From Flavobacterium tagetis (GTDB taxonomy: Bacteria > Bacteroidota > Bacteroidia > Flavobacteriales > Flavobacteriaceae): a DNA stretch of 64,000 nt. Location of the stretch: assembly GCF_016735615.1 (NCBI RefSeq), contig NZ_JAERSF010000004.1:62001-126000 (forward strand), written 5' to 3'. Every line of letters begins with the position of its first letter. Position 1 is the stretch's first letter. The notes beneath the pieces are model-generated. The model saw only the letters and a list, made by a program, of their open reading frames with translations, was not told the DNA's origin and did no database searches. Position numbers and translations under genes: made by a program. Of the stretch, positions 29,416 through 60,211 are shown piece by piece.

Positions 29416-29481
29416 AAGGTAGAACATAGATTATCGAAGGATTAGACCTGAATTCATAATTTCTACCTTAAAATTTTTTTT
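29416..29481 (+). promoter_or_regulatory. attenuator-like structure before rpsD, candidate S4 leader
   Basis: AAGGTAGAA (29416-29424) and TTCTACCTT (29461-29469) pair perfectly over 9 bp. Inside, ATTAT (29430-29434) and ATAAT (29456-29460) stack on it, and AGG...CCT can pair at the tip. Four As then T8 (29474-29481) follow, ending three bases before the rpsD ATG. It resembles an intrinsic terminator or a ribosomal-protein leader. S4 is the classic autorepressor, so feedback by S4 at this site is a reasonable inference. Confidence 0.6.
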
Positions 29482-45548: not shown

Positions 45549-46013
45549 ATGAATTGGTACGTAGTTTATACAAAGCCTAAATGGGAGAAGAAAGTTGCAG
45601 ATAAACTTAATCAGTTGGGAATAGAATGTTATTGTCCGCTGATTACTCAGATAAAACAGTGGTCAGACCGAAAAAAGAAAGTTGAAACACCTCTTTTTAA
45701 TTCTTATGTTTTTGTTCATTTATCAGATTCTGATCGTAATTTAGTTTTTCAAGCTCAAGGAGTAGTTAGATATTTATTTTGGTTAGGAAAAGCTGCAATT
45801 GTAAAAGATCAAGAAATTGAAATTATTAGAACAAGTTTAAAAGATCCCAATTTGAGTGATGTTTCAGTTTCGGCTATTCAGGTTGGAGATAAAATTAAAC
45901 TAGAGTCTGGTGTGTTTATCAATCAAAATGCAATTGTTCAGGAAGTCTCTAATAATTACTATGTGCTGGTGCTTGAAGCTTTAGGATGTGTCTTGAAAAT
46001 AAAATATAAATAA
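45549..46013 (+). CDS. NusG-family specialised antitermination factor (UpxY/LoaP-like)
   Basis: A 154-residue NusG paralogue. The NGN domain (1-100) begins MNWYVVYTKPKWEKKVADKL and contains the RNAP-binding region around ETPLFNSYVFVHL and GVVRYLFWLG. A short KOW-like domain (about 108-154) reads VGDKIKLESGVF and VLVLEALGCVLKI. It is much shorter than housekeeping NusG and lacks its usual central sequence. In Bacteroides, UpxY proteins near capsule loci antiterminate their own operon through the 5' leader. This gene lies 40 bases before a strong terminator and 170 before the promoter/structured leader of the long operon, which suggests that leader is its target. Confidence 0.88.
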   Translation: MNWYVVYTKPKWEKKVADKLNQLGIECYCPLITQIKQWSDRKKKVETPLFNSYVFVHLSDSDRNLVFQAQGVVRYLFWLGKAAIVKDQEIEIIRTSLKDPNLSDVSVSAIQVGDKIKLESGVFINQNAIVQEVSNNYYVLVLEALGCVLKIKYK

Positions 46014-46036
46014 CAACGTTATTCAATAAAAAGTAA

Positions 46037-46081
46037 ACAGAAGAGAAGTCTTTTTTTAGATTTTTTTCTTCTGTTTTTTTT
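46037..46081 (+). terminator. intrinsic terminator after the NusG-like gene
   Basis: AAACAGAAGA (46035-46044) and TCTTCTGTTT (46067-46076) form a 10-bp stem with a T-rich 22-base loop, ending in T8. It closes the first polysaccharide block, unless antitermination carries transcription through. Confidence 0.85.
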
Positions 46082-46173
46082 ATAAAGTAATTATTTACAG
46101 CCTGATTAATAACGCATTGTGGTTAAGCGTTTTTTTATTAACAATTTGTTTTTGAGTATTACGGGAAACCGTA

Positions 46174-46204
46174 TTGATTAACTAGAGTTATTATACTATA
46201 TTTG
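46174..46204 (+). promoter_or_regulatory. promoter of the long polysaccharide operon
   Basis: TTG (46174-46176), 20 bases, then TATATTTG (46197-46204) fits the Flavobacteriia consensus perfectly. The start should fall at about 46209, directly before the structured leader. Confidence 0.87.
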
Positions 46205-46219
46205 CGCGAAAATGATTAA

Positions 46220-46284
46220 TTTAGGCATCTGAGTCAGATATTGTGACTTGGAACGGCGAAGCCGTGAATTTTTAAGAGCCTAAA
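46220..46284 (+). ncRNA. compact structured leader RNA of the polysaccharide operon
   Basis: Outer stem TTTAGGC (46220-46226) with GCCTAAA (46278-46284), 7 bp. Inside, ATCTG (46227-46231) pairs with CAGAT (46235-46239), and ACGGC (46253-46257) with GCCGT (46261-46265) on a GAA loop, giving a three-way-junction shape. AGTCA (46232-46236) can instead pair with TGACT (46244-46248), which excludes the first arm, so two conformations are possible. No T-tract follows. It ends 12 bases before the dehydrogenase ATG and fills nearly the whole leader. It may be the recognition site of the NusG-like factor or a sensor RNA. Confidence 0.6.
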
Positions 46285-46296
46285 GAAATTAAGAAA

Positions 46297-47586
46297 ATGA
46301 AGTTAGAAAAAAATATTAAAATTGCAGTTATTGGTTTAGGCTATGTCGGATTGCCATTAGCTAGACTGTTTGCAACAAAATATTCTGTCATTGGTTTTGA
46401 TATAAATGAATCGAGAGTTAGTTCTCTGAAATCAGGAACAGATACTACTTTAGAAGTAGAGGATGATGTTTTGCAAAGCGTTTTAGTAGAGAAAACCTCT
46501 GAAAAAGAAGGATTATATTGTACTGCCTCTATAAAGGATATTGTTGAATGTAATTATTATATTGTCACAGTTCCTACACCAGTAGACAAAAATAATAGAC
46601 CAGATTTAACGCCTCTTTATAAATCTAGTGAAACCGTTGGTAAAGTTTTAAAAAGAGGGGATGTAGTTATTTACGAATCTACAGTTTATCCAGGAGTAAC
46701 AGAAGAACAATGTGTGCCAGTTTTAGAGCAGGTTTCAGGATTGAAATTTAATGAAGATTTTTTCGCAGGATATTCGCCAGAAAGGATTAATCCAGGCGAT
46801 AAAGAGCATACAGTTGAAAAAATTTTAAAAGTAACATCGGGTTCAACACCAGAAATAGGTTTAAAAGTTGATGCTTTATACAAGTCTGTAATTACTGCCG
46901 GAACCCATTTAGCTCCCACAATAAAAGTAGCAGAAGCAGCGAAAGTTATTGAGAACTCTCAGCGAGACATTAATATTGCTTTTGTTAACGAATTAGCTAA
47001 GATATTCAACTTAATGAATATCGATACTCAAGAAGTATTAGCTGCAGCTTCAACAAAATGGAATTTTTTGCCTTTTAAACCAGGTCTTGTAGGTGGACAT
47101 TGTATTGGTGTAGATCCCTACTACTTGGCACAAAGAGCACAAGAGTTCGGTTATCACCCTGAAATAATTTTGGCAGGAAGACGATTGAATGATAGCATGG
47201 GCGAATACGTAGCGTCACAAATAGTGAAGTTAATGATTAAAAAAGGCATTTCTGTTAATGGTGCTGAATTGCTAATGCTTGGAATTACTTTCAAAGAGAA
47301 CTGCCCAGATGTTAGAAATACAAAAATTGTGGATGTTGTTAACGGCTTAAAGGAATATGGAATTTTAGTAACTATATTTGATCCCCTTGCCAATGCACAT
47401 GATGTAATAAAAGAATATAATTTAGTAACATTAAACTCTATTCCAAACAATAAATTTGATGCAATAGTTCTTGGAGTTTCACATACTGAATTTTTAGAAC
47501 TGGATTTTGCTAAATTGCAAAAATCAAATAGTTTATTGTATGATGTAAAAGGAGTTTTGGGTACTATAGCAGATAATAGATTATAG
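46297..47586 (+). CDS. wbpO: UDP-N-acetylhexosamine 6-dehydrogenase, WbpO/TviB type
   Basis: A 429-residue nucleotide-sugar dehydrogenase. The NAD fold opens KIAVIGLGYVGLPLARLFATKY. YIVTVPTPVD, YESTVYPGVTEE and FAGYSPERINPGDKEHTVEKI are typical of the UDP-HexNAc class. VGGHCIGVDPYYLAQRA holds the catalytic Cys269. The GITFKENCPDVRNTKIVDVV block closes the enzyme. It oxidises UDP-GalNAc or UDP-GlcNAc to the uronic acid, working with the WbpP/TviC-like epimerase at 43082. It is the first gene of the long operon, right after the structured leader. A short terminator-like hairpin overlaps its stop. Confidence 0.9.
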   Translation: MKLEKNIKIAVIGLGYVGLPLARLFATKYSVIGFDINESRVSSLKSGTDTTLEVEDDVLQSVLVEKTSEKEGLYCTASIKDIVECNYYIVTVPTPVDKNNRPDLTPLYKSSETVGKVLKRGDVVIYESTVYPGVTEEQCVPVLEQVSGLKFNEDFFAGYSPERINPGDKEHTVEKILKVTSGSTPEIGLKVDALYKSVITAGTHLAPTIKVAEAAKVIENSQRDINIAFVNELAKIFNLMNIDTQEVLAAASTKWNFLPFKPGLVGGHCIGVDPYYLAQRAQEFGYHPEIILAGRRLNDSMGEYVASQIVKLMIKKGISVNGAELLMLGITFKENCPDVRNTKIVDVVNGLKEYGILVTIFDPLANAHDVIKEYNLVTLNSIPNNKFDAIVLGVSHTEFLELDFAKLQKSNSLLYDVKGVLGTIADNRL

Positions 47587-47606
47587 GGTCATAAACCCTT
47601 TTTTAT
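47585..47606 (+). terminator. weak terminator-like hairpin between the first two genes of the long operon
   Basis: AGGGT (47585-47589) and ACCCT (47595-47599) pair over 5 bp around CATAA, followed by T6 and more Ts. The stem is short, so it may only pause polymerase; an antitermination factor would pass it easily. Confidence 0.4.
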
Positions 47607-47618
47607 TTTTTAGAGGAA

Positions 47619-48626
47619 ATGGAAACAAAAGAATCAATAGTACATGTAGTTTTGACAGGTGGAGTAGGAAGTAGATTATGGCCACTTTCTCGTAAAAGTC
47701 AACCTAAACAATATTTAGAGATATTTGAAGGGAAATCTTTATTCGAAATGACTATAGAACGAAACAGTCATTTAGCTGATAAAGTGATGGTTGTAGGGAA
47801 TGTAGATAATCATCATTTAAGTGGAAAAGTGATGGATAAAACTAAAACTTCTTACACAAATATTGTTGAAGCAACACCTCGAAATACAGCAGCGGCAATT
47901 GCCTTTGCTGCTTTTGCTTCAAAGTCAGAAGATATACTAATAATTACGCCTTCCGATCATATAATTGATAAAATAGAAGATTATAATAATGCAATTCAAG
48001 AAGCAATCTCTAAAGCAAAAGATGGTTTTATTGTAACTTTTGGAATTATTCCAACTAAACCAGAGACTGGTTATGGTTATATTGAATCTAAGGGTGACAA
48101 AGTCTTGTCATTTAGAGAAAAACCAAACGAAACTACAGCTAAAGAGTTTATTGCAAGAGGAAACTTTTTATGGAATAGTGGTATGTTTTGCTTTAAAGCT
48201 GGTGTTTTATTGGATGAATTAAAGCAATTTCAGCCAGATGTTTATGAAAAATCTAAAGCAGTTTGGGAAGCTTCTGAAAGAGGATTTTTAGATTTAGAAT
48301 TATCAATGCAAATTCCATCAATTAGTATTGATTACGCTGTGATGGAAAGGAGTAAAAAAATAAAAGTAGTTCCTGCATCTTTTTCTTGGTCTGATCTCGG
48401 TTCTTTTGAATCAGTATACGAATATTTAGTTTCAAAAGGACATCCTGTAGATTCTAACGGTAATATGGTAATAGGCTGCGATAGTCATACAACTTTTTTA
48501 GGTTTAAGAAATACTATTTTTGTACATACAGATAATGCTAATTTGATTTTGCAAAAAGAAAATTCGCAGGATGTAAAAGATATATATAACGAACTGGAAA
48601 AGCAAAATTCGGATTTATTAAATTAA
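47619..48626 (+). CDS. manC: mannose-1-phosphate guanylyltransferase
   Basis: A 335-residue sugar-nucleotide transferase that makes GDP-mannose. The pyrophosphorylase signature GGVGSRLWPLSRKSQPKQYLEIF is close to the N-terminus. EATPRNTAAAIAFAAFAS, ITPSDHIIDK, FGIIPTKPETGYGYIE and VLSFREKPNE are characteristic, followed by FLWNSGMFCFKAGVLLDEL and DYAVMERSKKIKVVPASFSWSDLGSFES. It lacks the C-terminal phosphomannose isomerase domain of AlgA-type fusions. It follows the dehydrogenase by 32 bases. No GDP-mannose dehydratase or phosphomannomutase is seen in the window. Confidence 0.93.
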   Translation: METKESIVHVVLTGGVGSRLWPLSRKSQPKQYLEIFEGKSLFEMTIERNSHLADKVMVVGNVDNHHLSGKVMDKTKTSYTNIVEATPRNTAAAIAFAAFASKSEDILIITPSDHIIDKIEDYNNAIQEAISKAKDGFIVTFGIIPTKPETGYGYIESKGDKVLSFREKPNETTAKEFIARGNFLWNSGMFCFKAGVLLDELKQFQPDVYEKSKAVWEASERGFLDLELSMQIPSISIDYAVMERSKKIKVVPASFSWSDLGSFESVYEYLVSKGHPVDSNGNMVIGCDSHTTFLGLRNTIFVHTDNANLILQKENSQDVKDIYNELEKQNSDLLN

Positions 48627-48642
48627 TAGAAAGTATTCAAGA

Positions 48643-49689
48643 ATGAAAAAAATTCTAATAACTGGCGGTGCTGGTTTTATTGGTTCTCATGTGGTAAGAC
48701 GTTTCGTAAACAAGTATCCGCAATATCAGATTTTTAATTTAGATGCTTTAACATATGCAGGAAATCTGGAAAACATAAAAGATATTGAAAATAATTCAAA
48801 TTATACCTTTGTAAAAGGAGATATAGTAGATGAAAGTTTTATAAATGATCTTTTTAAACTTCACGATTTTGATGGAGTTTTACATTTAGCGGCAGAATCA
48901 CATGTTGATCGCTCAATTGAAGATCCATTAGCATTTGTAAAAACAAATGTTATTGGAACAATGAATTTGTTAAATGCAGCTAAAAATCAATGGAAAGATA
49001 ATTTTGCGGGTAAAAGATTTTATCATATAAGTACTGACGAGGTTTATGGCTCATTAGGAGCAACAGGATTATTTACAGAGGAAACTCCTTATGATCCAAA
49101 TTCACCATATTCAGCTTCAAAAGCAAGTTCTGATCATTTTGTTAGAGCTTATGGAGAAACTTATGGACTTCCATATGTTTTAACTAACTGTTCAAACAAT
49201 TACGGATCATATCATTTTCCTGAAAAGCTTATTCCTCTTTTTATTAATAATATTATAAACAATAAGTCATTACCTGTTTATGGAGATGGAAATTACACGC
49301 GTGATTGGCTTTTTGTGGAAGATCATGCAATAGCAATAGATTTAGTTTTTCATGAAGGAAAGAATCATGAGACGTATAATATTGGCGGATTTAATGAATG
49401 GAAAAATATAGATCTGGTTAAGTTACTATGTAAAATAATGGATGGAAAATTAGGACGAGAACAAGGTACTTCTGAAAAACTAATTACCTATGTAAAAGAT
49501 AGACCAGGTCATGATTTACGTTATGCTATAGATGCTTCAAAAATTAATAGAGAACTAGGTTGGAAACCTTCAGTTACTTTTGAAGAAGGGTTAGAAAGAA
49601 CTATCAATTGGTACCTGAATAACCAAGAATGGCTTCAAAATGTTACTTCAGGAGCTTATAAGGATTACTATCAAAAACAATACTCATAA
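48643..49689 (+). CDS. rmlB: dTDP-glucose 4,6-dehydratase
   Basis: A 348-residue extended SDR. GGAGFIGSHVVRRFVNKYP opens the NAD site. The long RmlB signature includes HLAAESHVDRSIEDPLAFVKTNVIGT, HISTDEVYGSLG, and YSASKASSDHFVRAYGETYGLP with the catalytic Tyr/Lys. TNCSNNYGSYHFPEKLIPLFINN and YTRDWLFVEDHAIAI follow. It makes the 4-keto-6-deoxy intermediate for rhamnose or other 6-deoxy sugars. rmlA, rmlC and rmlD are not seen here, so the final sugar is open. It lies 16 bases after manC. Confidence 0.93.
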   Translation: MKKILITGGAGFIGSHVVRRFVNKYPQYQIFNLDALTYAGNLENIKDIENNSNYTFVKGDIVDESFINDLFKLHDFDGVLHLAAESHVDRSIEDPLAFVKTNVIGTMNLLNAAKNQWKDNFAGKRFYHISTDEVYGSLGATGLFTEETPYDPNSPYSASKASSDHFVRAYGETYGLPYVLTNCSNNYGSYHFPEKLIPLFINNIINNKSLPVYGDGNYTRDWLFVEDHAIAIDLVFHEGKNHETYNIGGFNEWKNIDLVKLLCKIMDGKLGREQGTSEKLITYVKDRPGHDLRYAIDASKINRELGWKPSVTFEEGLERTINWYLNNQEWLQNVTSGAYKDYYQKQYS

Positions 49690-49739
49690 AAGAAGATATT
49701 AAAATAATAAAAATTCTTTTAAATAATTTTCTCATAAAC

Positions 49740-52244
49740 ATGAAAAAAATAATATACGTTCTTGCCCTATTTTTTACTTTATTAATTTCTTTCAATGCAA
49801 ACGCCCAGGATATTATAAAATCTAAAGACCTTAGTACTGTAAAAGTAGATTATTTATCAGATGATGAAATTGCAAAAATTGTTTCTCAATTAAAAAGTAA
49901 CAAAGCAACAATTAATGATGTTGAATCTATGGCTTTATCAAAAGGCATGAGCCAAGTGGAATTTGATAAGTTAAGAGCTCGTGTTATTGAATACGAAAGA
50001 AAGAATACTTCAGATAAGGATAAAGATAAAAGTAAAAAGGATCAAGATAAATTAAAAAAGACAGATAAGGAATCGGAGTTTGGAAGAAAGCAAGAAAAAA
50101 TAAAAAATGAAAAAATAAAAGATTCTTTAAATGCTTTAATTTTTGGTTCAGAACTATTTGATAATCCTACATTAAATTTTGAACCAGATTTAAACTTAGC
50201 CACTCCTATGAACTACGTTTTAGGTCCTGGTGATGAATTGCAGATAAGTATATATGGTGTCCAAGAATATAATGCCAATATACCAGTAAGCGTTGAAGGG
50301 AAAGTAAGTATTGATTATGTGGGACAAATATCCGTTTCAGGAATGTCTATTGAAGCAGCAACGCAGAAAATAAAAGCAGCTATTGCTAGAGTGTATAGCA
50401 CTGTTCGCTCTGGACAATCTCAGGTGAGTATCAGTTTAGGAAAGATACGTACTATAAAAGTAACAATCGTTGGGGGTAAACAACCTGGTAATTATTCAAT
50501 ATCTTCTTTGGCAACTGTTTATAATGCGTTGCACTTAGCAGGTGGACCTGGAAAGAATGGCAGTTATAGAAATATTGAATTGATACGAAATAACAAGGTT
50601 TACAAGAATATTGATATTTATCGATTTTTAATTAAAGGAGATCAATCTGATAATGTCAGTTTAAAAGAAAATGATGTAATTAGAATCCCAGCATATACTC
50701 AAAGAGTTACTGTTGAAGGTGAAGTAAAAAGACCAGGAATTTTTGAAATGAGAAAAGGGGAGAAATTTTCTGATTTATTGAATTTTGCATCTGGGTTTAA
50801 TGAATTTGCTTATACTGCTTCGGTTAATGTTCTTCAAAAAACAGGAAAAGAGTTTAAAGTTCACGATGTAAACGAAAGTGAATACAGTTCTTATGAGCCT
50901 CAATCGGGAGATGTTTTTAAGGTTACAAAAATTTTGAACCGATTTGAAAATCGTATTAAGATTGAAGGCGCCGTTTTTAGACCAGATTATTATTCTTTTA
51001 CTGAGGGAATGAGAATTTCAGATCTTATTATTAGAGCAGAAGGATTAAAAGAAGACGCTTATAGCAAACGAGCGAGAGTTATTCGTTTAAAAACAGATCT
51101 AACAACAGAAATTGTTAATGTAGATTTAGGTGCTGCCTTATCAGGTGATTTAAATGCAGATATTGAATTAAAAAGAGAAGATATAGTAACTGTATATTCT
51201 ATTTTAGAATTTAGAGAGGAGTATAAAGTTACTATAGATGGTGAGGTAAAAAATCCAGGAGAATATGAATATTTCGAGAATCTTACTTTAAATGATTTAG
51301 TGGTTCAAGTAGGAGGCTTAACAGGCTCTGCTTCAAAAAGAGTTGAAATTGCAAGGATGATTAAATCTGATGCTATTGATGATGCTGATCCTAAACGTAT
51401 AGAATTAGTTGAACTAGAGATAACAGCAGATAATAATGAGCAAGTAAAGAATTTTGTCTTAAAACCTTTTGACGTTATTAATATTCGTAGAATGGCAGTT
51501 TATGAAAAACCTGAAATGGTTAAAGTAAGTGGAGCTGTTACATATCCAGGGAAATATGTTCTAGCAAATAAGAAAGAGAGAGTTTACAATGTAGTAATGA
51601 GAGCGGGTGGATTGACATCTATTGCAAATTTAGATGGTATGAAGATAAAAAGACCGATCAAAGAAGAACAAATAGAACAATTAGAAAGTATAAATCTTAA
51701 TTTGGAGAAAAAAGAAACATTAGAGAAAAAAGAAGGAGCTTTAGAAGAATCAAATCTTAAAACTAAAGATACTCTCAAATCTAAATTATCAAAAAAATTA
51801 AGAGACGAACTAAAGTACACAACAATTCCTGTTAATTGGGAGAAAATTGTAAAGGATAAGAATCACTATTCTAATGTTACATTGTTTCCTGGTGATGAAA
51901 TAGAAGTTGCTGTCTATAATGAAGGCGTAAAAGTGACAGGAAATGTGTTATTGACTTCAGAAATACCTTATAGAAACGGAAAAGGATTTAAATATTACAT
52001 TAATTCTGTTGGTGGAGTTGACAGTAAAGGATGGAAAAGAAAAGCTTATATAATTTATCCAAATGGGAAAGCTGCGGTAACTAGTTCATTTTTATTTTTT
52101 AGATCTTATCCTAAAGTTGAACCAGATTCGCAAATAGTTGTACCTGAAAAACCTGAAAAGAAGAAGATGACTGCAGGAGAATGGGTTGGGATTGGAAGTG
52201 TTTTGGCTAGTCTAGCCTTATTAATTGTTACGGCTTTTAAATAA
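49740..52244 (+). CDS. long SLBB-domain polysaccharide export protein
   Basis: An 834-residue periplasmic/outer-membrane export protein. The signal peptide is KKIIYVLALFFTLLISFNANAQ. A charged, Lys/Glu-rich and coiled part (about 85-130, SDKDKDKSKKDQDK) follows. The Poly_export core begins YVLGPGDELQISIYG (about 158-172). Several SLBB repeats are spread to the C-terminus (around 250, 320, 410, 500, 600 and 730; for instance RVTVEGEVKRPGIFEMRKGE and YKVTIDGEVKNPGEYEY). A final hydrophobic helix reads WVGIGSVLASLALLIVTAF. It is three times larger than the Wza at 39817 and pairs with the kinase-less Wzz directly downstream. Confidence 0.9.
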   Translation: MKKIIYVLALFFTLLISFNANAQDIIKSKDLSTVKVDYLSDDEIAKIVSQLKSNKATINDVESMALSKGMSQVEFDKLRARVIEYERKNTSDKDKDKSKKDQDKLKKTDKESEFGRKQEKIKNEKIKDSLNALIFGSELFDNPTLNFEPDLNLATPMNYVLGPGDELQISIYGVQEYNANIPVSVEGKVSIDYVGQISVSGMSIEAATQKIKAAIARVYSTVRSGQSQVSISLGKIRTIKVTIVGGKQPGNYSISSLATVYNALHLAGGPGKNGSYRNIELIRNNKVYKNIDIYRFLIKGDQSDNVSLKENDVIRIPAYTQRVTVEGEVKRPGIFEMRKGEKFSDLLNFASGFNEFAYTASVNVLQKTGKEFKVHDVNESEYSSYEPQSGDVFKVTKILNRFENRIKIEGAVFRPDYYSFTEGMRISDLIIRAEGLKEDAYSKRARVIRLKTDLTTEIVNVDLGAALSGDLNADIELKREDIVTVYSILEFREEYKVTIDGEVKNPGEYEYFENLTLNDLVVQVGGLTGSASKRVEIARMIKSDAIDDADPKRIELVELEITADNNEQVKNFVLKPFDVINIRRMAVYEKPEMVKVSGAVTYPGKYVLANKKERVYNVVMRAGGLTSIANLDGMKIKRPIKEEQIEQLESINLNLEKKETLEKKEGALEESNLKTKDTLKSKLSKKLRDELKYTTIPVNWEKIVKDKNHYSNVTLFPGDEIEVAVYNEGVKVTGNVLLTSEIPYRNGKGFKYYINSVGGVDSKGWKRKAYIIYPNGKAAVTSSFLFFRSYPKVEPDSQIVVPEKPEKKKMTAGEWVGIGSVLASLALLIVTAFK

Positions 52245-52253
52245 ATTAATTTA

Positions 52254-53327
52254 ATGGATAAAACAGTTGCTGAAAACGATGAAATATCGTTAAAAGAATT
52301 AATACAAGAAATAAAACAATGGTATCAGTACTTACTGTCTAAATGGAAGATTATTACATTAGCTGGGGTTGTGGGAGTTGTTTTAGGATTGACTTACTCG
52401 TTCATCAAGAAACCTGTCTATACGGCTACTTTGTCATTTGCTTTAGAGGATGATAAATCTGGAGGTAGCGGTATTGGAGGGGCATTAGGACTTGCTAGCT
52501 CTTTTGGTTTAGATTTAGGTGGGGGTGGAGGAGGAATATTTACTGGGTCTAATTTAACAGAGTTGTTTAAATCGAGAGCGATGGTTGAGAAAACTCTTTT
52601 GTCGCCAATAACTTTAAATGGAAAAGTAATTTCATTGGCTGAAATGTATATCCAAAATAATAATTGGCGTAAAAAATGGAATGAAAGCCCCAAACTAATG
52701 AATATTAAGTTTTTGCCAAATGACGATCGCACAAAATTTAATCGTGTTCAGGACAGTATAATGGGCGTGATGTATAAAAATTTATCAGAAGGTGGATTAT
52801 CTGTTGCTCAAAAAGATAAAAAAGTATCAATCATTAGTATTGATGTTATATCAAAAAATGAACTTTTTGCAAAGTATTTTTGTGAAGCTCTAGCTAGGGA
52901 GGTTGGTAAATTTTATGTCGAAACAAAAAGCAAAAAAGCAAGAATGAACATGGCTATTTTAGAGCGGCAAGTAGATTCAATTCGACAAGAATTGAATGGT
53001 GCTATTACTGGAGTAGCGGTAGCAAATGATAACACTTTTAATTTAAATCCAGCACTTAATATACGTCGCGCACCGTCAGCAAGAAGGCAAGTTGATGTGC
53101 AGGCCAATACGGCTATATTAACAGAGCTGGTAAAACAATCAGAATTAGCTAAGGTTACTTTACGTAAAGAAACACCTTTAATTCAAGTTATTGATAGGCC
53201 AATTTTGCCACTAGCTAAAGAGAAATTTGGTAAAGCTAAAGGGGTTTTAATAGGTGGGTTTTTGGCAGGATTTTTAATGATCTTGTATTTAATTTTAAAA
53301 AGAATTTTTGTCGTTATTGCAAAATAG
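52254..53327 (+). CDS. wzz: Wzz-type chain-length/copolymerase protein without kinase domain
   Basis: A 357-residue inner-membrane protein. A cytosolic N-terminus precedes TM1 (WKIITLAGVVGVVLGLTYSFI, about 36-56). The periplasmic domain contains a marked Gly-rich stretch (SGGSGIGGALGLASSFGLDLGGGGGG, about 73-100) typical of Bacteroidota Wzz proteins. A coiled region around MAILERQVDSIRQEL follows, then the Pro-rich motif before TM2 (VIDRPILPLAKEKFGKAKGVLIGGFLAGFLMILYLIL). No Walker motif is present, unlike the Wzc at 40624. It lies 9 bases after the SLBB protein and 18 before pseB. Confidence 0.87.
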   Translation: MDKTVAENDEISLKELIQEIKQWYQYLLSKWKIITLAGVVGVVLGLTYSFIKKPVYTATLSFALEDDKSGGSGIGGALGLASSFGLDLGGGGGGIFTGSNLTELFKSRAMVEKTLLSPITLNGKVISLAEMYIQNNNWRKKWNESPKLMNIKFLPNDDRTKFNRVQDSIMGVMYKNLSEGGLSVAQKDKKVSIISIDVISKNELFAKYFCEALAREVGKFYVETKSKKARMNMAILERQVDSIRQELNGAITGVAVANDNTFNLNPALNIRRAPSARRQVDVQANTAILTELVKQSELAKVTLRKETPLIQVIDRPILPLAKEKFGKAKGVLIGGFLAGFLMILYLILKRIFVVIAK

Positions 53328-53345
53328 AATTTAATAATATATCAT

Positions 53346-54356
53346 ATGACTTTTGAGAACAAAACAATATTAATTACTGGAGGTACCGGTTCTTTAGGTA
53401 AAGCACTGACTTCACATATTTTTTCTGAATACCCAAATATAAAAAAACTTGTAATTCTATCTAGAGATGAGCAAAAGCAATTTCAAATGGCTCAAGAATA
53501 TCCAGAAAAAGATTACCCTCAAATTAGATTTTTTTTAGGAGATGTTCGTGATCAGGAAAGGCTAATAAGAGCATTTCAAGGAGTTGATATTGTGATTCAT
53601 GCCGCAGCAATGAAACACGTTCATTTAGCTGAGTATAATCCGGATGAGTGTATTAAAACTAATATTGGAGGAGCTCAAAACGTTATTCATGCGGCTCTCG
53701 AAACTGGAGTTCAGGATGTTGTAGCTTTATCTACAGATAAAGCTTGTGCACCTATCAATTTGTATGGAGCAACAAAGTTAACTTCTGATAAATTATTTGT
53801 TGCTGCAAATAATATAAAAGGAAAAAATCCAATAAAATTTTCTGTTGTTAGGTATGGAAATGTTATGGGATCAAATGGTTCTGTAATTCCTTTTTTTATG
53901 AAGAAAAAAGAGCAAGGTATACTGCCTATAACAGATGTGGCTATGACAAGATTTAATATTTCACTTCAAGGAGGTGTTGATATGGTTATGCATGCGATTA
54001 AAAATGCTTGGGGTGGCGAGATATTTATACCAAAAATTCCATCATATAAAATTACTGATGTTGCAGAAGCTATTGCTCCTGAATGTGAATTAAATATTAT
54101 AGGTATTAGGCCAGGAGAAAAAATTCATGAAGAAATGATAACTTCTTCTGATTCTTATCACACATTTGATCTAGGTAAATATTTTACAATTCTTCCCTCT
54201 ATCCCTAATTTTGATTTGTCAAAATTTATTTCAAACTTTAATGCTGTTAAAGTGCCAGAAGGATTCAACTATAATTCAGGTACTAATACAGAATGGGAAA
54301 CTGTTGATACTTTAAGAAAACTTATTAAAGAGCATGTAGATGGGACATTTAACTAA
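53346..54356 (+). CDS. pseB: UDP-N-acetylglucosamine 4,6-dehydratase (inverting), PseB
   Basis: A 336-residue SDR dehydratase that opens pseudaminic acid synthesis. KTILITGGTGSLGKALTSHIF is the NAD motif. SRDEQKQFQMAQEYPEK, GDVRDQERLIRAFQGVDIVIHAAAMKHVHLAEYNPDECIKTNIGGAQNVIHAAL and LSTDKACAPINLYGATKLTSDKLFVAANN are strongly characteristic of PseB/FlaA1, with the catalytic Thr/Asp/Lys set and YGATK. The C5-inverting class is indicated by this overall pattern. It lies 18 bases after wzz and overlaps pseC by 17 bases. Confidence 0.95.
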   Translation: MTFENKTILITGGTGSLGKALTSHIFSEYPNIKKLVILSRDEQKQFQMAQEYPEKDYPQIRFFLGDVRDQERLIRAFQGVDIVIHAAAMKHVHLAEYNPDECIKTNIGGAQNVIHAALETGVQDVVALSTDKACAPINLYGATKLTSDKLFVAANNIKGKNPIKFSVVRYGNVMGSNGSVIPFFMKKKEQGILPITDVAMTRFNISLQGGVDMVMHAIKNAWGGEIFIPKIPSYKITDVAEAIAPECELNIIGIRPGEKIHEEMITSSDSYHTFDLGKYFTILPSIPNFDLSKFISNFNAVKVPEGFNYNSGTNTEWETVDTLRKLIKEHVDGTFN

Positions 54357-55554
54357 AATAGATAAACCAATAGCATATGGTAGGCAAAATATAACTCAAG
54401 AAGATATAAATTGTGTTATAGAAGCTTTACAATCTGACTACTTAACACAAGGGCCAAAAATTGCTGAATTTGAAAAGAATTTCGCAGAATATATTGGGGC
54501 TAAATATGCTGTAGCAGTATCTAATGGAACAGCTGCGCTGCATTTGTGTGCTTTAGCTTTAAATGTTGCAGAAGGAGATAAGGTTATTACTACTCCAATT
54601 ACTTTTGCAGCGTCAGCAAATTGCATACGTTATTGTGGAGGTGATATAGTATTTTCGGATATAGATCCTCTAAGTTATCTTCTAGATATAAATAAAGTAA
54701 GAAATTTGCTTGAATCTTCACCAAGAGGAACTTATAAAGGTATTATACCTGTAGATTTTGCTGGAAGGGCTGTTGATCTTGAAGCTTTCAGAAAGCTTGC
54801 TGATGAATATGATCTTTGGATTATTGAAGATGCATGCCATGCACCTGGTGGATTTTTTCAAGATTCTTTAGGCAAATCACAAAAATGTGGCAATAGTAAA
54901 TTTGCTGATTTAGCAATTTTTTCTTTTCATCCCGTTAAACATATAGCTTGTGGGGAAGGTGGTATGATAACAACTGATGATGAAAAATTGTATAAAAAAC
55001 TCTTAGCATTGCGAACGCATGGTATCGTTAAGAATGAAAGCGAATATACAAATAGCATTGAGTTTGCTGCTGGTACTGATATAGCCCAAAACTATCCCGC
55101 TTGGTATATGGAAATGCAAACTCTTGGTTTTAATTATAGATTAACTGACTTTCAAGCGGCACTTGGTATATCTCAACTTGGAAGAGCTGATGAAGGAGTT
55201 GAAAAAAGAAAAAATATTGCTGAGATTTACAATACTGAATTTTCCGGTAAGAATTATATAAAAGGACAATCGGGATTGGTAGAAGGACATGCTTATCATT
55301 TGTATGTAATTGAAGTTGAAGATAGATTAGGGTTATACAATTATTTGAGAGAAAATAAAATCTTTGCGCAGATACATTATATTCCTTGTCATTTGATGCC
55401 TTATTATAAGCAGTATGGTTGGAAAGAAGGAGATATGCCAATAGCTGAAAGCTATTATAAAAACTGTATAAGTCTTCCTATGTATCCTACATTATCAAGT
55501 GTAGAACAGAATTATGTAATAGAATGTATTAATTCTTATTATGGAAGCAAATAA
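54340..55554 (+). CDS. pseC: UDP-4-amino-4,6-dideoxy-N-acetyl-beta-L-altrosamine transaminase, PseC
   Basis: A 404-residue DegT/AryC1-family PLP enzyme. IAYGRQNITQEDINCVIEALQSDYLTQGPKI opens it, with the substrate region EYIGAKYAVAVSNGTAALHL. The PLP Lys is K200 in FSFHPVKHIACGEGG. The Asp of IIEDACHAPGG contacts the cofactor. The C-terminal part keeps GFNYRLTDFQAALGISQL and HIHYIPCHLMPYY-like (here QIHYIPCHLMPYY) motifs. It transfers an amino group to the 4-keto product of PseB. It overlaps pseB by 17 bases and the methyltransferase by 14, a coupled arrangement. Confidence 0.94.
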   Translation: MGHLTKIDKPIAYGRQNITQEDINCVIEALQSDYLTQGPKIAEFEKNFAEYIGAKYAVAVSNGTAALHLCALALNVAEGDKVITTPITFAASANCIRYCGGDIVFSDIDPLSYLLDINKVRNLLESSPRGTYKGIIPVDFAGRAVDLEAFRKLADEYDLWIIEDACHAPGGFFQDSLGKSQKCGNSKFADLAIFSFHPVKHIACGEGGMITTDDEKLYKKLLALRTHGIVKNESEYTNSIEFAAGTDIAQNYPAWYMEMQTLGFNYRLTDFQAALGISQLGRADEGVEKRKNIAEIYNTEFSGKNYIKGQSGLVEGHAYHLYVIEVEDRLGLYNYLRENKIFAQIHYIPCHLMPYYKQYGWKEGDMPIAESYYKNCISLPMYPTLSSVEQNYVIECINSYYGSK

Positions 55555-56215
55555 TCAAAAAGGCTCTTTTCTTTCTTATGAAGCAAACGCATGGTTTGAG
55601 AGAAACAAATCAGTTATTGAAAATTACAGCCTAGAAAGAGATAGGGTAGTTACTCTTATAAAAGAGTACGATTTGAAGGCTGAAAGTATTTTAGAGATTG
55701 GTTGTTCTGCTGGTTATAGATTAAATGCTATAAAATCAATTTTTGCTGACAGTGAAGTGTTTGGTGTCGAGCCATCTGAGAAAGCTATTGAGTATGGAGA
55801 AAGTCATTTTCCTAGCGTAAATTTTATTCATGGAACGGCTGACAATCTAGAACAATTTGATAAGGAGTCCCTCGATATTGTTATAGTTGGATTTGTATTT
55901 TATGTGATTGATAGAAATATTTTGCTAAAAGTTGTTGCTGAAATTGATAGGGTATTAAGAAATGGTGGTATTTTAATTATCGTTGATTTTTTTTCAGAAA
56001 ATTCCCTTAAAAATGTTTATGAACATATCCAGGAGTTTACAGCTTTTTCATTTAAACAAAATTATGACGAAGTATTTACAGCATCTAAGTTATATTATCT
56101 TTTAGATAAATCGACTTGGAATCATTCAGAAAAAAAACTTGATGCATCAAATAACTACTATGACAAATATAGTATTTCATTGTTAAAAAAAGATATTGAA
56201 TCAAGTTACAAATAA
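55541..56215 (+). CDS. class-I SAM-dependent methyltransferase
   Basis: A 224-residue methyltransferase. Motif I is SILEIGCSAGYRLNAIK (about 49-65), followed by motif II-like VFGVEPSEKAIEYGE and the DIVIVGFVFYVIDR/VLRNGGILIIVDFF motif. It lacks any family label I recognise. The N-terminus (SFLSYEANAWFERNKSVIENY) is like that of methyltransferases in sugar and nonulosonic acid loci, so it may methylate a sugar intermediate or the finished glycan. It overlaps pseC by 14 bases and precedes the aldo/keto reductase by 48. The acceptor is unknown. Confidence 0.8.
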   Translation: MEANNQKGSFLSYEANAWFERNKSVIENYSLERDRVVTLIKEYDLKAESILEIGCSAGYRLNAIKSIFADSEVFGVEPSEKAIEYGESHFPSVNFIHGTADNLEQFDKESLDIVIVGFVFYVIDRNILLKVVAEIDRVLRNGGILIIVDFFSENSLKNVYEHIQEFTAFSFKQNYDEVFTASKLYYLLDKSTWNHSEKKLDASNNYYDKYSISLLKKDIESSYK

Positions 56216-56263
56216 ATAATTGTATAATCAAGCTGGTTTTAATGTTGCAAAATTAAAATAAAA

Positions 56264-57130
56264 TTGGAGAAGAAGTTAGTATTAGGTACGGTTCAGATGG
56301 GGCTTGATTATGGAATAAATAATAAGGCGGGTAAAATTCCAGTAGAGGAGAGTTTTAGGATTTTGAAAAAAGCTTTTGAATTAGGAATAAATACAATTGA
56401 TACAGCCGAAGCTTATGGAAGTGCACATCAAGTAATTGGTAATTTTCATAGATTGAATTCGAATATTCAATATAAAATTATTACAAAATTCCCTCATGAA
56501 ATTAAAAAGGATGAAGTTGAACAAAAGATAGTTTCGTATGTTGAGGAACTTAATGTAAATAATTTAGAGGTTTTAATGTTTCATTCCTTCGATTCTTATC
56601 AAAAGAACAAAGAGACTCTTCCTATACTAAATAATTTGAAAAGTAGGGGTTTAATAAAAAATATTGGTGTTTCTGTCTATACTAATTTTCAAATAGAAGT
56701 ACTTCTTTCTGAGGATGAAGTTTCAGTAATTCAATTACCATTTAATTTACTGGACAATGAGTTTCAACGTGGCGATTTGTTAGAAAAAGCTAAATTAGCA
56801 AATAAAGAAATTCATACTCGATCTGCTTTTTTACAAGGTTTGTTTTTTAAGAATCAATTTAATGATGAAGTATCACTGCAATTAGAAGATCATCTCGTTA
56901 AGATTAATAATATTTCTGAAAAAGAAGGTATTAGTCTTACTGAACTTGCTTTAAGCTATTGTTTGGCTCAAAGAAATATTGATAAAGTGTTAATTGGTGT
57001 AGATTCTGAAAACCAACTTATTGAAAATGTATTGGCCGCTGATTATAAAATCAGTGATGATATTATCGGTAAAATAAAAAATATTAAAGTTAAGAATATA
57101 GATTTATTAAACCCATCTTTATGGAAGTAA
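56264..57130 (+). CDS. aldo/keto reductase of the nonulosonic-acid cluster
   Basis: A 288-residue AKR-superfamily protein. It opens LVLGTVQMGLDYGINN. The catalytic region GINTIDTAEAYGSAHQVIG supplies Asp and Tyr, and IKNIGVSVYTNFQIEVLL and VIQLPFNLLDNEFQRG are other conserved parts. The start is TTG at 56264: upstream in frame there is a stop at 56240 and no ATG between. The enzyme would reduce a keto or aldehyde group with NAD(P)H. In this operon it precedes the SpsF-like gene, which it overlaps by 10 bases. Together with the aminotransferase at 57883 it hints at a variant nonulosonic acid step. Confidence 0.82.
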   Translation: MEKKLVLGTVQMGLDYGINNKAGKIPVEESFRILKKAFELGINTIDTAEAYGSAHQVIGNFHRLNSNIQYKIITKFPHEIKKDEVEQKIVSYVEELNVNNLEVLMFHSFDSYQKNKETLPILNNLKSRGLIKNIGVSVYTNFQIEVLLSEDEVSVIQLPFNLLDNEFQRGDLLEKAKLANKEIHTRSAFLQGLFFKNQFNDEVSLQLEDHLVKINNISEKEGISLTELALSYCLAQRNIDKVLIGVDSENQLIENVLAADYKISDDIIGKIKNIKVKNIDLLNPSLWK

Positions 57131-57879
57131 AGACAATTTTAGTTACTCAGGCTAGAAGTGGCAGTACAAGATTACCTGGAAAAGTATTATTGGAAATAGA
57201 AGGGAAATCATTGCTTCAAATTCATCTGGGAAGATTGAAAAGAAGTAAAAAGGCTTCAGAAATAATTGTAGCTACAACTACCAACGAGATCGATGATGAA
57301 CTATTTGATAAGGTTTGTGATTGGGGATATAACTGTTTTAGAGGTTCTGAAACTGATGTGCTTGATCGTTTTTATCAAGCTGTTAAAGATAAAAAACCCG
57401 AATGGATTGTGAGATTGACTTCAGATTGTCCCCTAATAGATCCGGAATTGGTTGATAATATAATAACTTTTGTTCAGGAAAATAATAAGGACTATGGCTC
57501 GAATACATTGATTGAGAATTTTCCTGATGGACAAGATATTGAAGTCTTTAAATTTTCTGTACTTGAAAGGGCGTGGAAAGAAGCTAAGCTTCTGTCTGAA
57601 AGGGAACACGTAACTCCTTATATTAGAAATAATTCAGATTTTAACGGAGGTGTATTATTTAGCTCTATTAATTTTCCATGCGAATTTGATTTCTCAAAAA
57701 TAAGGATGACTGTTGATGAAGATAAAGATTTTAAATTAATAGAGACTCTTATAATGGCTTTGGGATTTAACAAAAATTGGATTGAATATACTAATTATAT
57801 TATTGAAAACAATCTCGAACATATTAATAAAGATATTATTAGAAATGAAGGACTATTAAAGTCTTTAAAAAAAGATTAA
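57121..57879 (+). CDS. SpsF/NeuA-like cytidylyltransferase-family protein
   Basis: A 252-residue nucleotidyltransferase-fold protein (PF02348-like). The CTP-binding signature QARSGSTRLPGKVLLEIEGKSLL lies at about 10-32. GSETDVLDRFYQAVKDKKPEWIVRLTSDCPLIDPELVDNII follows, as in SpsF and CMP-sugar synthetases. It may activate the nonulosonic acid as its CMP derivative, the job of PseF, which is otherwise absent from the visible cluster. The family also includes proteins annotated as glycosyltransferases, so assignment is by context. It overlaps the reductase by 10 bases and precedes the aminotransferase by 3. Confidence 0.85.
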   Translation: MEVKTILVTQARSGSTRLPGKVLLEIEGKSLLQIHLGRLKRSKKASEIIVATTTNEIDDELFDKVCDWGYNCFRGSETDVLDRFYQAVKDKKPEWIVRLTSDCPLIDPELVDNIITFVQENNKDYGSNTLIENFPDGQDIEVFKFSVLERAWKEAKLLSEREHVTPYIRNNSDFNGGVLFSSINFPCEFDFSKIRMTVDEDKDFKLIETLIMALGFNKNWIEYTNYIIENNLEHINKDIIRNEGLLKSLKKD

Positions 57880-57882
57880 TAA

Positions 57883-59190
57883 ATGGGAACAGGACAAGAA
57901 TTGTATAAAAAAGCTAAAAGTTTAATTCCGGGAGGTACAATGTTGTTATCCAAAAGACCGGAAATGTTTTTGCCAGATCATTGGCCATCATATTTTTCTA
58001 AAGCAAAAGGATGTAAAGTTTGGGATCTGGATGGGAAAGAATTTTTGGATATGTCAATTATGGGCATTGGAACGAATACTCTAGGTTATGGAAATGATGA
58101 GGTAGATGCAGCTGTTTTAGAAACAGTAAAAAAAGGCAATATGAGTACTCTTAGTTGTCCTGAAGAAGTTTATCTCGCTGAAAGACTTATCGAAATGAAT
58201 CCATGGGCCGATATGGTACGTTTCGCAAGAAGTGGAGGTGAAGCAAATGCTATAGCAATTAGGATTGCTAGAGCAGCATCTGGAAAAGATAAAGTTGCTA
58301 TATGTGGATATCATGGCTGGCATGATTGGTATCTCTCTGCAAATCATAATGGAGGAGATGATCTTTCAGGGCATTTATTGGCAGGGTTAAATCCTGGAGG
58401 AGTGCCTAAAAGTTTAAAAGATACTGTATTACCATTTCACTATAATAATTATGAAGAACTAGTTGACCTTGTTGAGAATAATGATATAGGTGTAATTAAA
58501 ATGGAAGTAGTCCGTAATTTTGGACCAGAAGATAACTTTTTGCATAAAGTAAGAGAATTGGCAACAAGAAAAAATATTGTGCTTATTTTTGATGAATGTA
58601 CTTCAGGCTTTAGAGAAACTTTTGGAGGTATTTATAAGAAATATGGAGTTGAACCAGATGTTGCTATGTTTGGTAAAACAATTGGTAATGGATATGCGCT
58701 TACTGCGGTTGTTGGAAAAAAATCAGTTATGGAAGCAGCACAAAATACTTTCATAAGCAGTACTTTCTGGACAGAGAGGATCGGACCGACAGCGGCTTTA
58801 GAAACTTTGAAAGTAATGGAAAAAGTTAAATCATGGGAAGTAATCACTGAAATTGGATTAAACATGAAACAGGGATGGCAAAATCTTGCCAATCTGCATA
58901 AGTTAGATATTACTATTTCGGGAATACCAGCTCTATCTACTTATAGTTTTAATAGTGAAAATGCGTTGGCCTATAAAACATTAATTGCACAAGAAATGTT
59001 AAAAAAAGGTTTTTTGGCTAGTACTAATTTTTATGCTGCAACAACACATACAGAGAATGATCTTGATTTGTATTTTAATGCATTAAGTGAAGTCTATAAA
59101 ACAATTGCTGACTGCGAAAATGAAGTGTTAAAAATTGAGAATCTTTTAGAAGGTCCAATTTGCCATGGTGGTTTTAAGAGATTAAATTAG
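57883..59190 (+). CDS. class-III aminotransferase (glutamate-1-semialdehyde aminomutase-like)
   Basis: A 435-residue PLP enzyme. LYKKAKSLIPGGTMLLSKRPEMF is typical of HemL-like proteins. ARSGGEANAIAIRIARAASG binds the cofactor phosphate, YHGWHDWY stacks on the ring, IFDECTSGFRETFGG gives the pyridine-N Asp, and FGKTIGNGYALTAVVG gives the PLP lysine (K265). A housekeeping hemL would be expected elsewhere, so this copy probably has its own substrate. Its place between the SpsF-like and GNAT genes suggests it aminates a sugar-derived carbonyl of the nonulosonic acid or a related residue. Confidence 0.86.
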   Translation: MGTGQELYKKAKSLIPGGTMLLSKRPEMFLPDHWPSYFSKAKGCKVWDLDGKEFLDMSIMGIGTNTLGYGNDEVDAAVLETVKKGNMSTLSCPEEVYLAERLIEMNPWADMVRFARSGGEANAIAIRIARAASGKDKVAICGYHGWHDWYLSANHNGGDDLSGHLLAGLNPGGVPKSLKDTVLPFHYNNYEELVDLVENNDIGVIKMEVVRNFGPEDNFLHKVRELATRKNIVLIFDECTSGFRETFGGIYKKYGVEPDVAMFGKTIGNGYALTAVVGKKSVMEAAQNTFISSTFWTERIGPTAALETLKVMEKVKSWEVITEIGLNMKQGWQNLANLHKLDITISGIPALSTYSFNSENALAYKTLIAQEMLKKGFLASTNFYAATTHTENDLDLYFNALSEVYKTIADCENEVLKIENLLEGPICHGGFKRLN

Positions 59191-59193
59191 ATA

Positions 59194-59754
59194 GTGAAAA
59201 AATATAAATGTTTAATCCAATCTGAATGGATTTCTGATAATTTTAGTTTAATTCCTATAAGGAATGATGATAAATTAGCAATTCTAAAGATGAGAAATGA
59301 GCAGATTTATCATTTAAGGCAAGCAGAGTTATTAACACTAGAAATGCAAGAAGCTTATTTTGAAAATGTTGTAGCTAAATTATTTGACCAAAAAAATCCA
59401 AATCAAATTCTCTTCACTTTTCTTGAAAAAGGAGAATTTATAGGTTATGGAGGATTAGTTCATATAAATTGGATCGACAAGAATGCAGAAGTTTCTTTTA
59501 TAATGCGTACAGAACTTGAAAAGGAAAAATTTTCCTATTACTGGGAAAATTACCTCTCGCTTCTTGAAAAAGTTGCATTCAAAGATTTAAATTTTCACAA
59601 AATTTTCACTTACGCTTTTGATTTGCGACCGCATTTATATTCTGTGTTAGAAAAATCTGGATTTCGCGAAGAGGCACGTCTTAAAGAGCATTGCTGTTTT
59701 CAAGGCAAATATTTGGATGTTGTGATAAACTCAAAATTAAATAGAAATGCTTAG
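59194..59754 (+). CDS. GNAT-family N-acetyltransferase
   Basis: A 186-residue acetyltransferase-fold protein. The central part FTFLEKGEFIGYGGLVHINWIDKNAEVSFIM is the GNAT beta4-beta5 region, and the C-terminal LEKVAFKDLNFHKIFTYAFDLRPHLYSVLEKSGFREEARLKEH contains the LxxxGFxxEgxxr motif of RimJ-like members. The start is GTG at 59194, 3 bases after the aminotransferase stop; no ATG occurs in the early frame. It could N-acetylate an aminosugar intermediate, one of the two candidate PseH functions here. It overlaps the next GNAT gene by 8 bases. Confidence 0.83.
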   Translation: MKKYKCLIQSEWISDNFSLIPIRNDDKLAILKMRNEQIYHLRQAELLTLEMQEAYFENVVAKLFDQKNPNQILFTFLEKGEFIGYGGLVHINWIDKNAEVSFIMRTELEKEKFSYYWENYLSLLEKVAFKDLNFHKIFTYAFDLRPHLYSVLEKSGFREEARLKEHCCFQGKYLDVVINSKLNRNA

Positions 59755-60208
59755 TTTTAGAAAAGCGACGTTAGATGACTTGGATTTGTATTTTGACTGG
59801 GCAAATAATTATGAAGTTAGAGCACAGTCTTATAATTCAGATCCAATAGTTTTTGAAAATCATAAAAAATGGTTTGAAGCTGCTATTAAAAATAGCTTAA
59901 TAGACATGTTTGTTTTTAAAAATTTAGATAATAATCTAATAGGTCAGGTGCGCATTCAAAAACAAAATGATAGAGAAGCTTTAATTGGAGTATCAGTTAG
60001 CCCTGATCAAAGGGGGAAAGGTTATGCGAAAGAAATGTTGTCATTGGCGACAGATTTTTTTTTACAATCTAATAATGGTTTTTTAATCAATGCATATATA
60101 AAAGAAAGTAATTTGATTTCTAAGTTTTCTTTCGAAAAAGCAGGATTTAAATTTAAAGAAATGGTTTCGTATGAAAACTTTATGAGTTTTCATTATATAA
60201 AACAATAG
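59747..60208 (+). CDS. PseH-like/PseG-C-terminal-like GNAT acetyltransferase
   Basis: A 153-residue GNAT. It opens LSFRKATLDDLDLYFDWANNYEVRAQSYNSDPI and continues HKKWFEAAIKNSLIDMFVF. That W-N-VR-S-H-WF pattern is shared with PseH and with the acetyltransferase domain that some PseG proteins carry at their C-terminus. The acetyl-CoA motif A is VSVSPDQRGKGYAKEMLSLA. It probably acetylates the 4-amino group formed by PseC. It lies 3 bases before pseI. The PseG hydrolase domain itself is not present in or next to it. Confidence 0.84.
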   Translation: MLSFRKATLDDLDLYFDWANNYEVRAQSYNSDPIVFENHKKWFEAAIKNSLIDMFVFKNLDNNLIGQVRIQKQNDREALIGVSVSPDQRGKGYAKEMLSLATDFFLQSNNGFLINAYIKESNLISKFSFEKAGFKFKEMVSYENFMSFHYIKQ

Positions 60209-60211
60209 TAA

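Follow-up and report, generated by a model that had tools for sequence, protein, structure and literature searches.

The closest described relatives of the locus analyzed here are built around paralogues of NusG. RfaH of Escherichia coli is tied to ops, a leader element with the sequence GGCGGTAGCGTG (PMC5995543), and LoaP of Bacillus to the hairpin dfn. Antitermination by UpxY is known from Bacteroides capsule operons: the B. fragilis proteins prevent termination in leaders (PMC7819879), and a remark citing Saba et al. (2024, Nat Commun 15:10862) holds that UpxY contacts the upstream DNA duplex. Outside Bacteroides, UpxY-type targeting appears little studied, and the surface-polysaccharide operons of Bacteroidota are long and costly.

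We analyzed a stretch of 64,000 nucleotides from Flavobacterium tagetis (assembly GCF_016735615.1, contig NZ_JAERSF010000004.1, positions 62,001 to 126,000), hereafter called the window, in which upxY and every feature of the leader and operon behind it lie on the forward strand. The original prediction had read the open reading frame at 45549–46013 as a NusG paralogue, and this reading proved accurate: its product, a NusG-family antiterminator with an NGN and a KOW domain, reaches 137.1 bits with the NCBIfam model antiterm_UpxY (NF033644; cut-off 100) and hence belongs to the UpxY antiterminator family. Its scores against the RfaH, NusG, and LoaP models all stay below the respective cut-offs; the Pfam NusG model gives 71 bits. 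The best AlphaFold2 model (pLDDT 89.4, with 75.9–80.0 for the remaining four models; pTM 0.70) retrieves NusG and RfaH in Foldseek, including RfaH on the ops-paused complex. As modeled, the fold of UpxY is that of NusG and RfaH, NGN plus KOW, with a KOW domain that is β-structured and not α-helical. Among the 76 UpxY proteins compared, W3, P30, D40, R41, F55, and G121 are invariant. A search of the genome yielded two proteins with a NusG domain, namely UpxY on contig 4 and one on contig 1.

According to Pfam and NCBIfam, upxY is flanked on both sides by polysaccharide genes (Wza, Wzc, nucleotide-sugar enzymes, PseI). Wza-, Wzc-, epimerase-, and UDP-glucose-dehydrogenase-like genes precede it, and an operon that includes a pseudaminic acid synthase (PseI) follows at 46297–63580 and may extend beyond the window. 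The first gene of this operon (46297–47586) encodes a TviB-like nucleotide-sugar dehydrogenase, which scores 546.7 bits with the TviB model, below its cut-off of 592, and 383.6 bits with the NDP-sugDHase model, above its cut-off of 189.8. No match named UpxZ occurs among the 21 proteins scanned between 39817 and 63577 (Pfam and NCBIfam; the last two with NCBIfam only).

A structured leader at 46220–46284 directly precedes the operon. Its minimum-free-energy fold (−26.1 kcal/mol, z −4.13, matched by 0 of 200 shuffles) consists, as originally proposed, of the outer stem TTTAGGC/GCCTAAA (46220–46226 with 46278–46284) and two arms. The first arm, H1, is a 9-bp hairpin at 46228–46252 (46228–46236 paired with 46244–46252), a putative nascent-RNA pause hairpin, and carries TGTGACT at 46242–46248. 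Behind it lies GGCGAAGCCGTG (46255–46266), which comprises the hairpin H2 with its core GCGAAGC at 46256–46262 and a putative pause; by analogy with ops, the pause is predicted at T46265/G46266. The segments AGTCA (46232–46236) and TGACT (46244–46248) had been taken for a mutually exclusive pairing that would break the first arm. Both strands, however, pair within that arm and form the top five pairs of H1. Because the supposed alternative pairing is part of H1 and does not compete with it, we rejected the two-state switch. Rfam 15 yields no family at threshold at the element in the window, where it gives sub-threshold matches only, and no family at threshold at the element in the 16 element-bearing loci scanned, the window locus included; the single Rfam match in these loci, Bacteroid-trp in L212, lies away from the element. 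Elsewhere in the window, at 29429–29461, there is an ordinary S4-Flavobacteria ribosomal protein leader (47.2 bits).

Relatives retain the structured leader before the glycan operon. When 150 genomes of the genus were searched at the DNA level, 42 gave matches, and the 27 long ones, that of the window genome included, were aligned; the short AT-rich matches L030–L032 were excluded, and the set also leaves out the matches of the 12 other genomes. One of these twelve (G004) is matched by the covariance model R1, which was built from the 27 leaders, with an E-value of 5.5e-7. All 27 leaders, which were recovered through DNA similarity, carry an unchanged GGCGNAGCC, and the stem letters GGC/GCC of H2 are constant among them. 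UpxY ends 239–274 nt 5′ of the element on the same strand in 27/27 cases, and a TviB-like frame follows the element in 26/27. The outer stem fared less well: although the closest relatives share it, 6 of 200 permutations of its arms among the 27 leaders paired as well as the real arrangement. RNAalifold alone supports nine pairs, and the outer stem is absent from these. On the strength of the permutations, we downgraded the outer stem, which is weak, from a core feature.

Two elements of the original prediction that precede the leader were borne out. The first is the intrinsic terminator 3′ of upxY (about 46035–46083), in which a AAACAGAAGA/TCTTCTGTTT stem is followed by a T-tract; the region 46020–46085 folds with z −4.66 and none of 200 shuffles is as good, and a simple terminator scan did not flag the hairpin at 46035–46083. 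The second is the promoter at 46174–46204, of the Bacteroidetes type and composed of TTG (46174–46176) and the box TATATTTG (46197–46204). The box is kept in 27/27 leaders, with ATATTTGC at the same place in the window leader and in the 26 from other genomes. The promoter call rests on this conservation and not on a σ70-style scan, which found no excess (9 promoters versus 9.2 expected). Directly 5′ of the −33 region lies an imperfect inverted repeat, TACGGGAAACCGTA (46160–46173), a possible operator; its right half is nearly constant in the 27 leaders.

With E-values up to 0.1, R1 matches 46/150 genomes of the genus. Since many of its weak matches sat directly 3′ of other UpxY genes on the same strand, we fetched 78 further UpxY loci, i.e., 78 of the 79 further UpxY genes above the cut-off used (G069, at a contig end, was left out). 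The stretches mostly covered 1.5 kb 5′ and 6 kb 3′ of upxY, and L083 was extended for a known match 17 kb away. The pattern TG[TG]G[AG]-N7..10-GCGNAGC gave 66 raw matches on the strand of upxY compared with 0 on the opposite strand, with a mean of 0.65 after single-base shuffling. Dropping five matches within upxY and two duplicates left 59 distinct elements in 58 loci, of which 56 lie 3′ of upxY (33 within 400 nt) and three just 5′ of it, a ratio biased by the fetched stretches being longer 3′ of the gene. The pattern inside upxY (L063, L083, L106, L116, and L118) lies 27 bases into the upxY match, where the conserved N-terminal coding sequence probably produces it by chance. The fetched stretches of 20/78 loci contain no element by this pattern; in at least one of them (L130), GGCGAAGCC is present and the first part is altered. 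Seven loci (L121, L125, L126, L128, L129, L132, and L138) have UpxY without a nearby element, followed by a convergent small gene that, judged by eye, resembles a helix-turn-helix regulator. A TAnnTTTG box precedes GCGNAGC by 49–58 nt in 27/59 of the other elements compared with 1/59 in a control window, and occurs at any distance within the window tested in 31/59. Promoter and element thus often form one module, in which the element would lie roughly 15–55 nt into the transcript when the start is placed from the box.

In its general design, the element consists of H1 with TGKGAST, followed 13–15 nt on by GCGNAGC (H2). Compensatory changes in homologous loci, which the original prediction had put forward as a check, are present: across 86 elements, the arms of H1 score 902 for covariation compared with 639 (sd 20, maximum 692) in 500 permutations of the 3′ arms. 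The H1 stem measures 7–9 bp in 76 elements and less than 7 bp in ten, and GCG follows TGK at a spacing of 14 nt in 63 elements, 13 in 21, and 15 in two. That GCG.AGC is constant in the wider set is due in part to construction, since the pattern used for searching required it. The same pattern left the outer pair of H2 free, and its letters vary as pairs (n = 72: G-C 49, C-G 6, U-G 5, A-U 3, G-U 3, other 6). When any triplet was allowed between GC and GC behind TGKGA, a GNA loop was found in 28/35 cases in Flavobacterium and in 5/10 in other families, where 1 in 16 would be expected.

These properties bear on two alternatives. One holds that the element is a site for a regulator of duplex DNA and its hairpins are incidental, for which the strong conservation of the primary sequence and the separate conserved palindrome 5′ of the promoter would speak. 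The element, however, occurs in one orientation relative to upxY (66 to 0), lies mostly 49–58 nt behind the box where a box is found, and has covarying stems that an operator would not need, and we consider such a site very improbable. The other is an attenuator: H2 would be a weak intrinsic terminator at which the leader transcript aborts unless UpxY or another factor acts. A terminator scan does flag ACGGCGAAGCCGT plus GAATTTTTAA in the window as terminator-like, and B. fragilis UpxY prevents termination in leaders (PMC7819879). Yet the stem has 3–5 bp, and within the 12 nt past H2, 19/86 elements have at least five T in some window of 8 nt; with the T-tract not conserved, we dropped the attenuator as improbable.

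For the phylum, we used the model R2, built from the UpxY-linked Flavobacterium elements with 14 of the 86 omitted as near-copies or unclear. Among 247 genomes, R2 matches 117 at E up to 0.1 and UpxY is found in 138 at E up to 1e-25: both occur in 98 genomes, the element only in 19, UpxY only in 40, and neither in 90 (Fisher p 1.2e-17). Genomes with an R2 match at E up to 1e-3 contain UpxY in 60/62 cases. Sixty UpxY loci from other families, picked from the phylum list of UpxY genes, comprise 18 with an element, and all 19 elements in these lie on the upxY strand, 0 on the opposite one; in the fetched stretches of the other 42, among them 20/20 of one family (f17), the pattern detects no element. 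Several f17 genomes have unlinked R2 matches, and two of the four inspected lie near Wzc-type genes, as would be expected if UpxY works in trans there. One genome, G213, has 23 R2 matches; its locus L197 (3010–4300; also L198 and L199) carries three elements that recur about every 526 bases, and among open reading frames of at least 60 aa this stretch holds only two short ones of 67 and 76 aa.

A search blind to UpxY, with one exact pattern against genomes of named species, gave at least 121 elements in at least 119 stretches. Among the matches listed, Bacteroidota appear in 73/80 titles and UpxY is encoded in the stretch (up to 8 kb) for 54 elements, on the same strand in 54/54, with the element 3′ of UpxY in 45 and 5′ in nine. 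The first genes 3′ of 108 elements among the matches listed include 24 UDP-glucose/GDP-mannose dehydrogenases, 13 epimerases, six Poly_export proteins, five nucleotidyl transferases, and five cytidylyltransferases. By computation, the two-part element, often a short fixed distance 3′ of a promoter, is tied to UpxY and to polysaccharide operons across Bacteroidota; relatedness among the genomes inflates the underlying sequence counts.

That the leader acts on its own, as a riboswitch or RNA thermometer for the TviB-like gene, might be suggested by its being a short, structured 5′ leader directly before a start codon. We regard this as scarcely credible: the first genes span 70 Pfam families among the 108 proteins in the matches listed, the element goes with UpxY, and the competing pairing is part of H1. 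The ligand-sensing RNA of the original prediction likewise finds no support, given that no Rfam family reaches threshold at the element in the window or the other loci scanned and the constant part is a short motif. Switch and riboswitch were dropped on these grounds. What stands is the idea of a factor and a leader that jointly control the long glycan operon, strongly supported by same-strand linkage in 27/27 leaders and in 54/54 blind matches among those listed and by the 60/62 genomes; the two-state switch fails, and the ligand-sensing RNA is unsupported.

Within its own genome, UpxY appears to have a second target. The strict pattern TGKGAST-N6/7-GCGNAGC occurs at exactly two sites in 5.1 Mb, the reversed pattern at none, and the third-best match of R2 has an E-value of 0.2. 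The second strict site is located on contig 5 at the head of another polysaccharide operon, which encodes a cytidylyltransferase, an O-antigen polymerase, a flippase-like protein (below the Pfam cut-off), pyruvyl and glycosyl transferases, a sugar transferase, Wza, and Wzc. Since the genome search reveals no second UpxY, the single UpxY on contig 4 may serve both sites, the one on contig 5 in trans.

Taken together, we consider it likely that the leader is an ops-like loading site at which UpxY boards RNA polymerase, with H1 as pause hairpin and GCGNAGC as a mini-hairpin in the non-template DNA. RNA polymerase would transcribe about 55 nt and pause at GGCGAAGCCGT|G, where H1 would form in the RNA exit channel and hold the pause. 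The displaced non-template strand would then fold into a d(GCGNAGC) mini-hairpin to be read by UpxY, which would probably also read TGKGAST in the duplex behind. Bound to the polymerase via its NGN domain, UpxY would stay on through the polysaccharide operon of roughly 17 kb, and the same protein would probably serve the second site in trans on the other contig.

Several features are consistent with such a pause. The consensus pause has the form G−11 G−10 ... Y−1 G+1, and by its letters GGCGAAGCCGTG has GG at the start and TG at positions 11–12. Counted by hand, the base of H1 would lie about 11–13 nt from the RNA end if the pause is at T; a distance of 11–13 nt is the spacing of hairpin-stabilized pauses. 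With the geometry of other pauses, GCGNAGC would be placed in the bubble and its RNA copy in the hybrid, leaving only the non-template DNA free. UpxY is also reported, by Saba et al. (2024), to recognize the paused polymerase via the non-template and upstream duplex DNA, helped by nascent RNA hairpins, and the anatomy of the window element agrees with this. GNA and GNNA loops on G-C stems yield ultra-stable mini-hairpins in DNA; the melting point of d(GCGAAGC) is near 78 °C (PMC4686876). The ops core, GC-GGTA-GC, likewise contains a GNNA loop. A DNA energy model gave no difference between the GAA loop and a CAA control (both −1.7 kcal/mol); because it shows no advantage of GAA, the claim of a DNA hairpin rests on literature and conservation.

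The main competitor of the loading site with a DNA hairpin is recognition of nascent RNA: UpxY would bind H1 and/or H2 as RNA hairpins, in the manner of LoaP, and not the non-template DNA. H1 is a covarying stem of the RNA type, the outer pair of H2 covaries as well, and the paralogue LoaP requires an RNA hairpin in the leader (PMC12691694). It is difficult to reconcile with this that the letters of H1 vary freely whereas the GGC/GCC letters of H2 are fixed in the 27 leaders, unlike those of a stem under selection for pairing only. Moreover, at the expected pause, GCGNAGC would sit in the RNA–DNA hybrid if the geometry is that of other pauses. We thus judge RNA recognition rather unlikely, albeit the most serious of the alternatives. 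For GCGNAGC, we also favor a signal read on the paused polymerase, probably in the form of DNA, over an RNA that binds a ligand.

A broader reading generalizes the DNA-hairpin loading site to a code valid throughout the phylum, in which an ultra-stable GNA-loop DNA mini-hairpin, formed by the displaced non-template strand 13–15 nt behind the TGKGAST of a pause hairpin, loads UpxY, and ops, with the GNNA loop of its core, uses the same trick by descent or convergence. We advance it tentatively and would not yet call it likely: outside the 27 leaders the constancy of GCG.AGC is partly due to construction, which shifts weight from this code toward recognition of RNA. If the code is true, one UpxY would control several unlinked polysaccharide operons as an RfaH-like regulon factor. 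We found no description of the TGKGAST/GCGNAGC signature in the literature outside subscription papers. In its searchable form, TGKGAST-N6/7-GCGNAGC, often about 55 nt behind TAnnTTTG, the signature gives a testable list of targets for the phylum and predicts the operons that a single UpxY would govern in trans. The element may also be a second natural case, besides ops, of a DNA hairpin in the bubble recruiting a factor.

The original prediction had regarded the locus as a candidate for an undescribed regulatory system, and this claim does not survive comparison with Bacteroides. Genomes of the order searched showed at most two UpxY genes each, and the comparison draws on five loci read from plasmid records. 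In the four from Bacteroidaceae (two B. finegoldii, two Phocaeicola massiliensis), GCGNAGC lies 21–60 nt 5′ of the UpxY match in 4/4, the full two-part pattern is present in 2/4, and an H1-like hairpin appears in the fold at 3/4 sites, where single folds are not significant (z −0.98 to −1.75). In the fifth locus, from Spirosoma, the pattern is absent and a bare GCGCAGC lies inside the gene preceding upxY. In three loci (L387, L388, and L389, about 3417–3510), the coding sequence of upxY has an N-terminal extension (annotated for L387 and L388, read by eye for L389) inside which the element falls. The Bacteroides/Phocaeicola element may thus be both coding and regulatory. The window element thus looks like a relative of the site used by the Bacteroides UpxY, a protein whose antitermination is already known.

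Among known systems, the leader families of Rfam share with the element its cis-regulatory position in a leader, and none reaches threshold at it in the window or the other loci scanned. LoaP, likewise a paralogue of NusG, is directed by a hairpin that lies in a long operon's leader (PMC12691694); that hairpin, dfn, consists of RNA and has a UNCG tetraloop, whereas here the loops of H1 vary and GCGNAGC is constant. RfaH/ops resembles the present system in combining a specialized NusG paralogue that acts, here probably, on unlinked operons with a 12-nt leader element that has consensus-pause ends (GG..GTG) and a mini-hairpin with a GC stem. GGCGAAGCCGTG is nevertheless not the ops 12-mer: it shares 8/12 letters with GGCGGTAGCGTG and differs in the middle, where it has a GNA triloop instead of GGTA and no T6 to flip out, and H1 is added. 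The ops-contacting residues H20, R23, Q24, and R73 of RfaH fall on the variable UpxY positions 19, 22, 23, and 70; as they are not kept, recognition by UpxY must use other residues. The KOW domain of the UpxY model, too, is β-structured where that of RfaH would be α-helical. UpxY of Bacteroides (Chatzidaki-Livanis 2009; Saba 2024) belongs to the same protein family and likewise acts in connection with the 5′ region of a polysaccharide operon. In contrast to that system, upxY here, as in 27/27 leaders, lies 5′ of an element that leads another operon, no UpxZ match accompanies it among the 21 proteins scanned, and one UpxY appears to serve two operons. The locus represents a variant of the UpxY system already known; what sets it apart is its gene order, the probable action of UpxY in trans, and the reach of the signature across the phylum.
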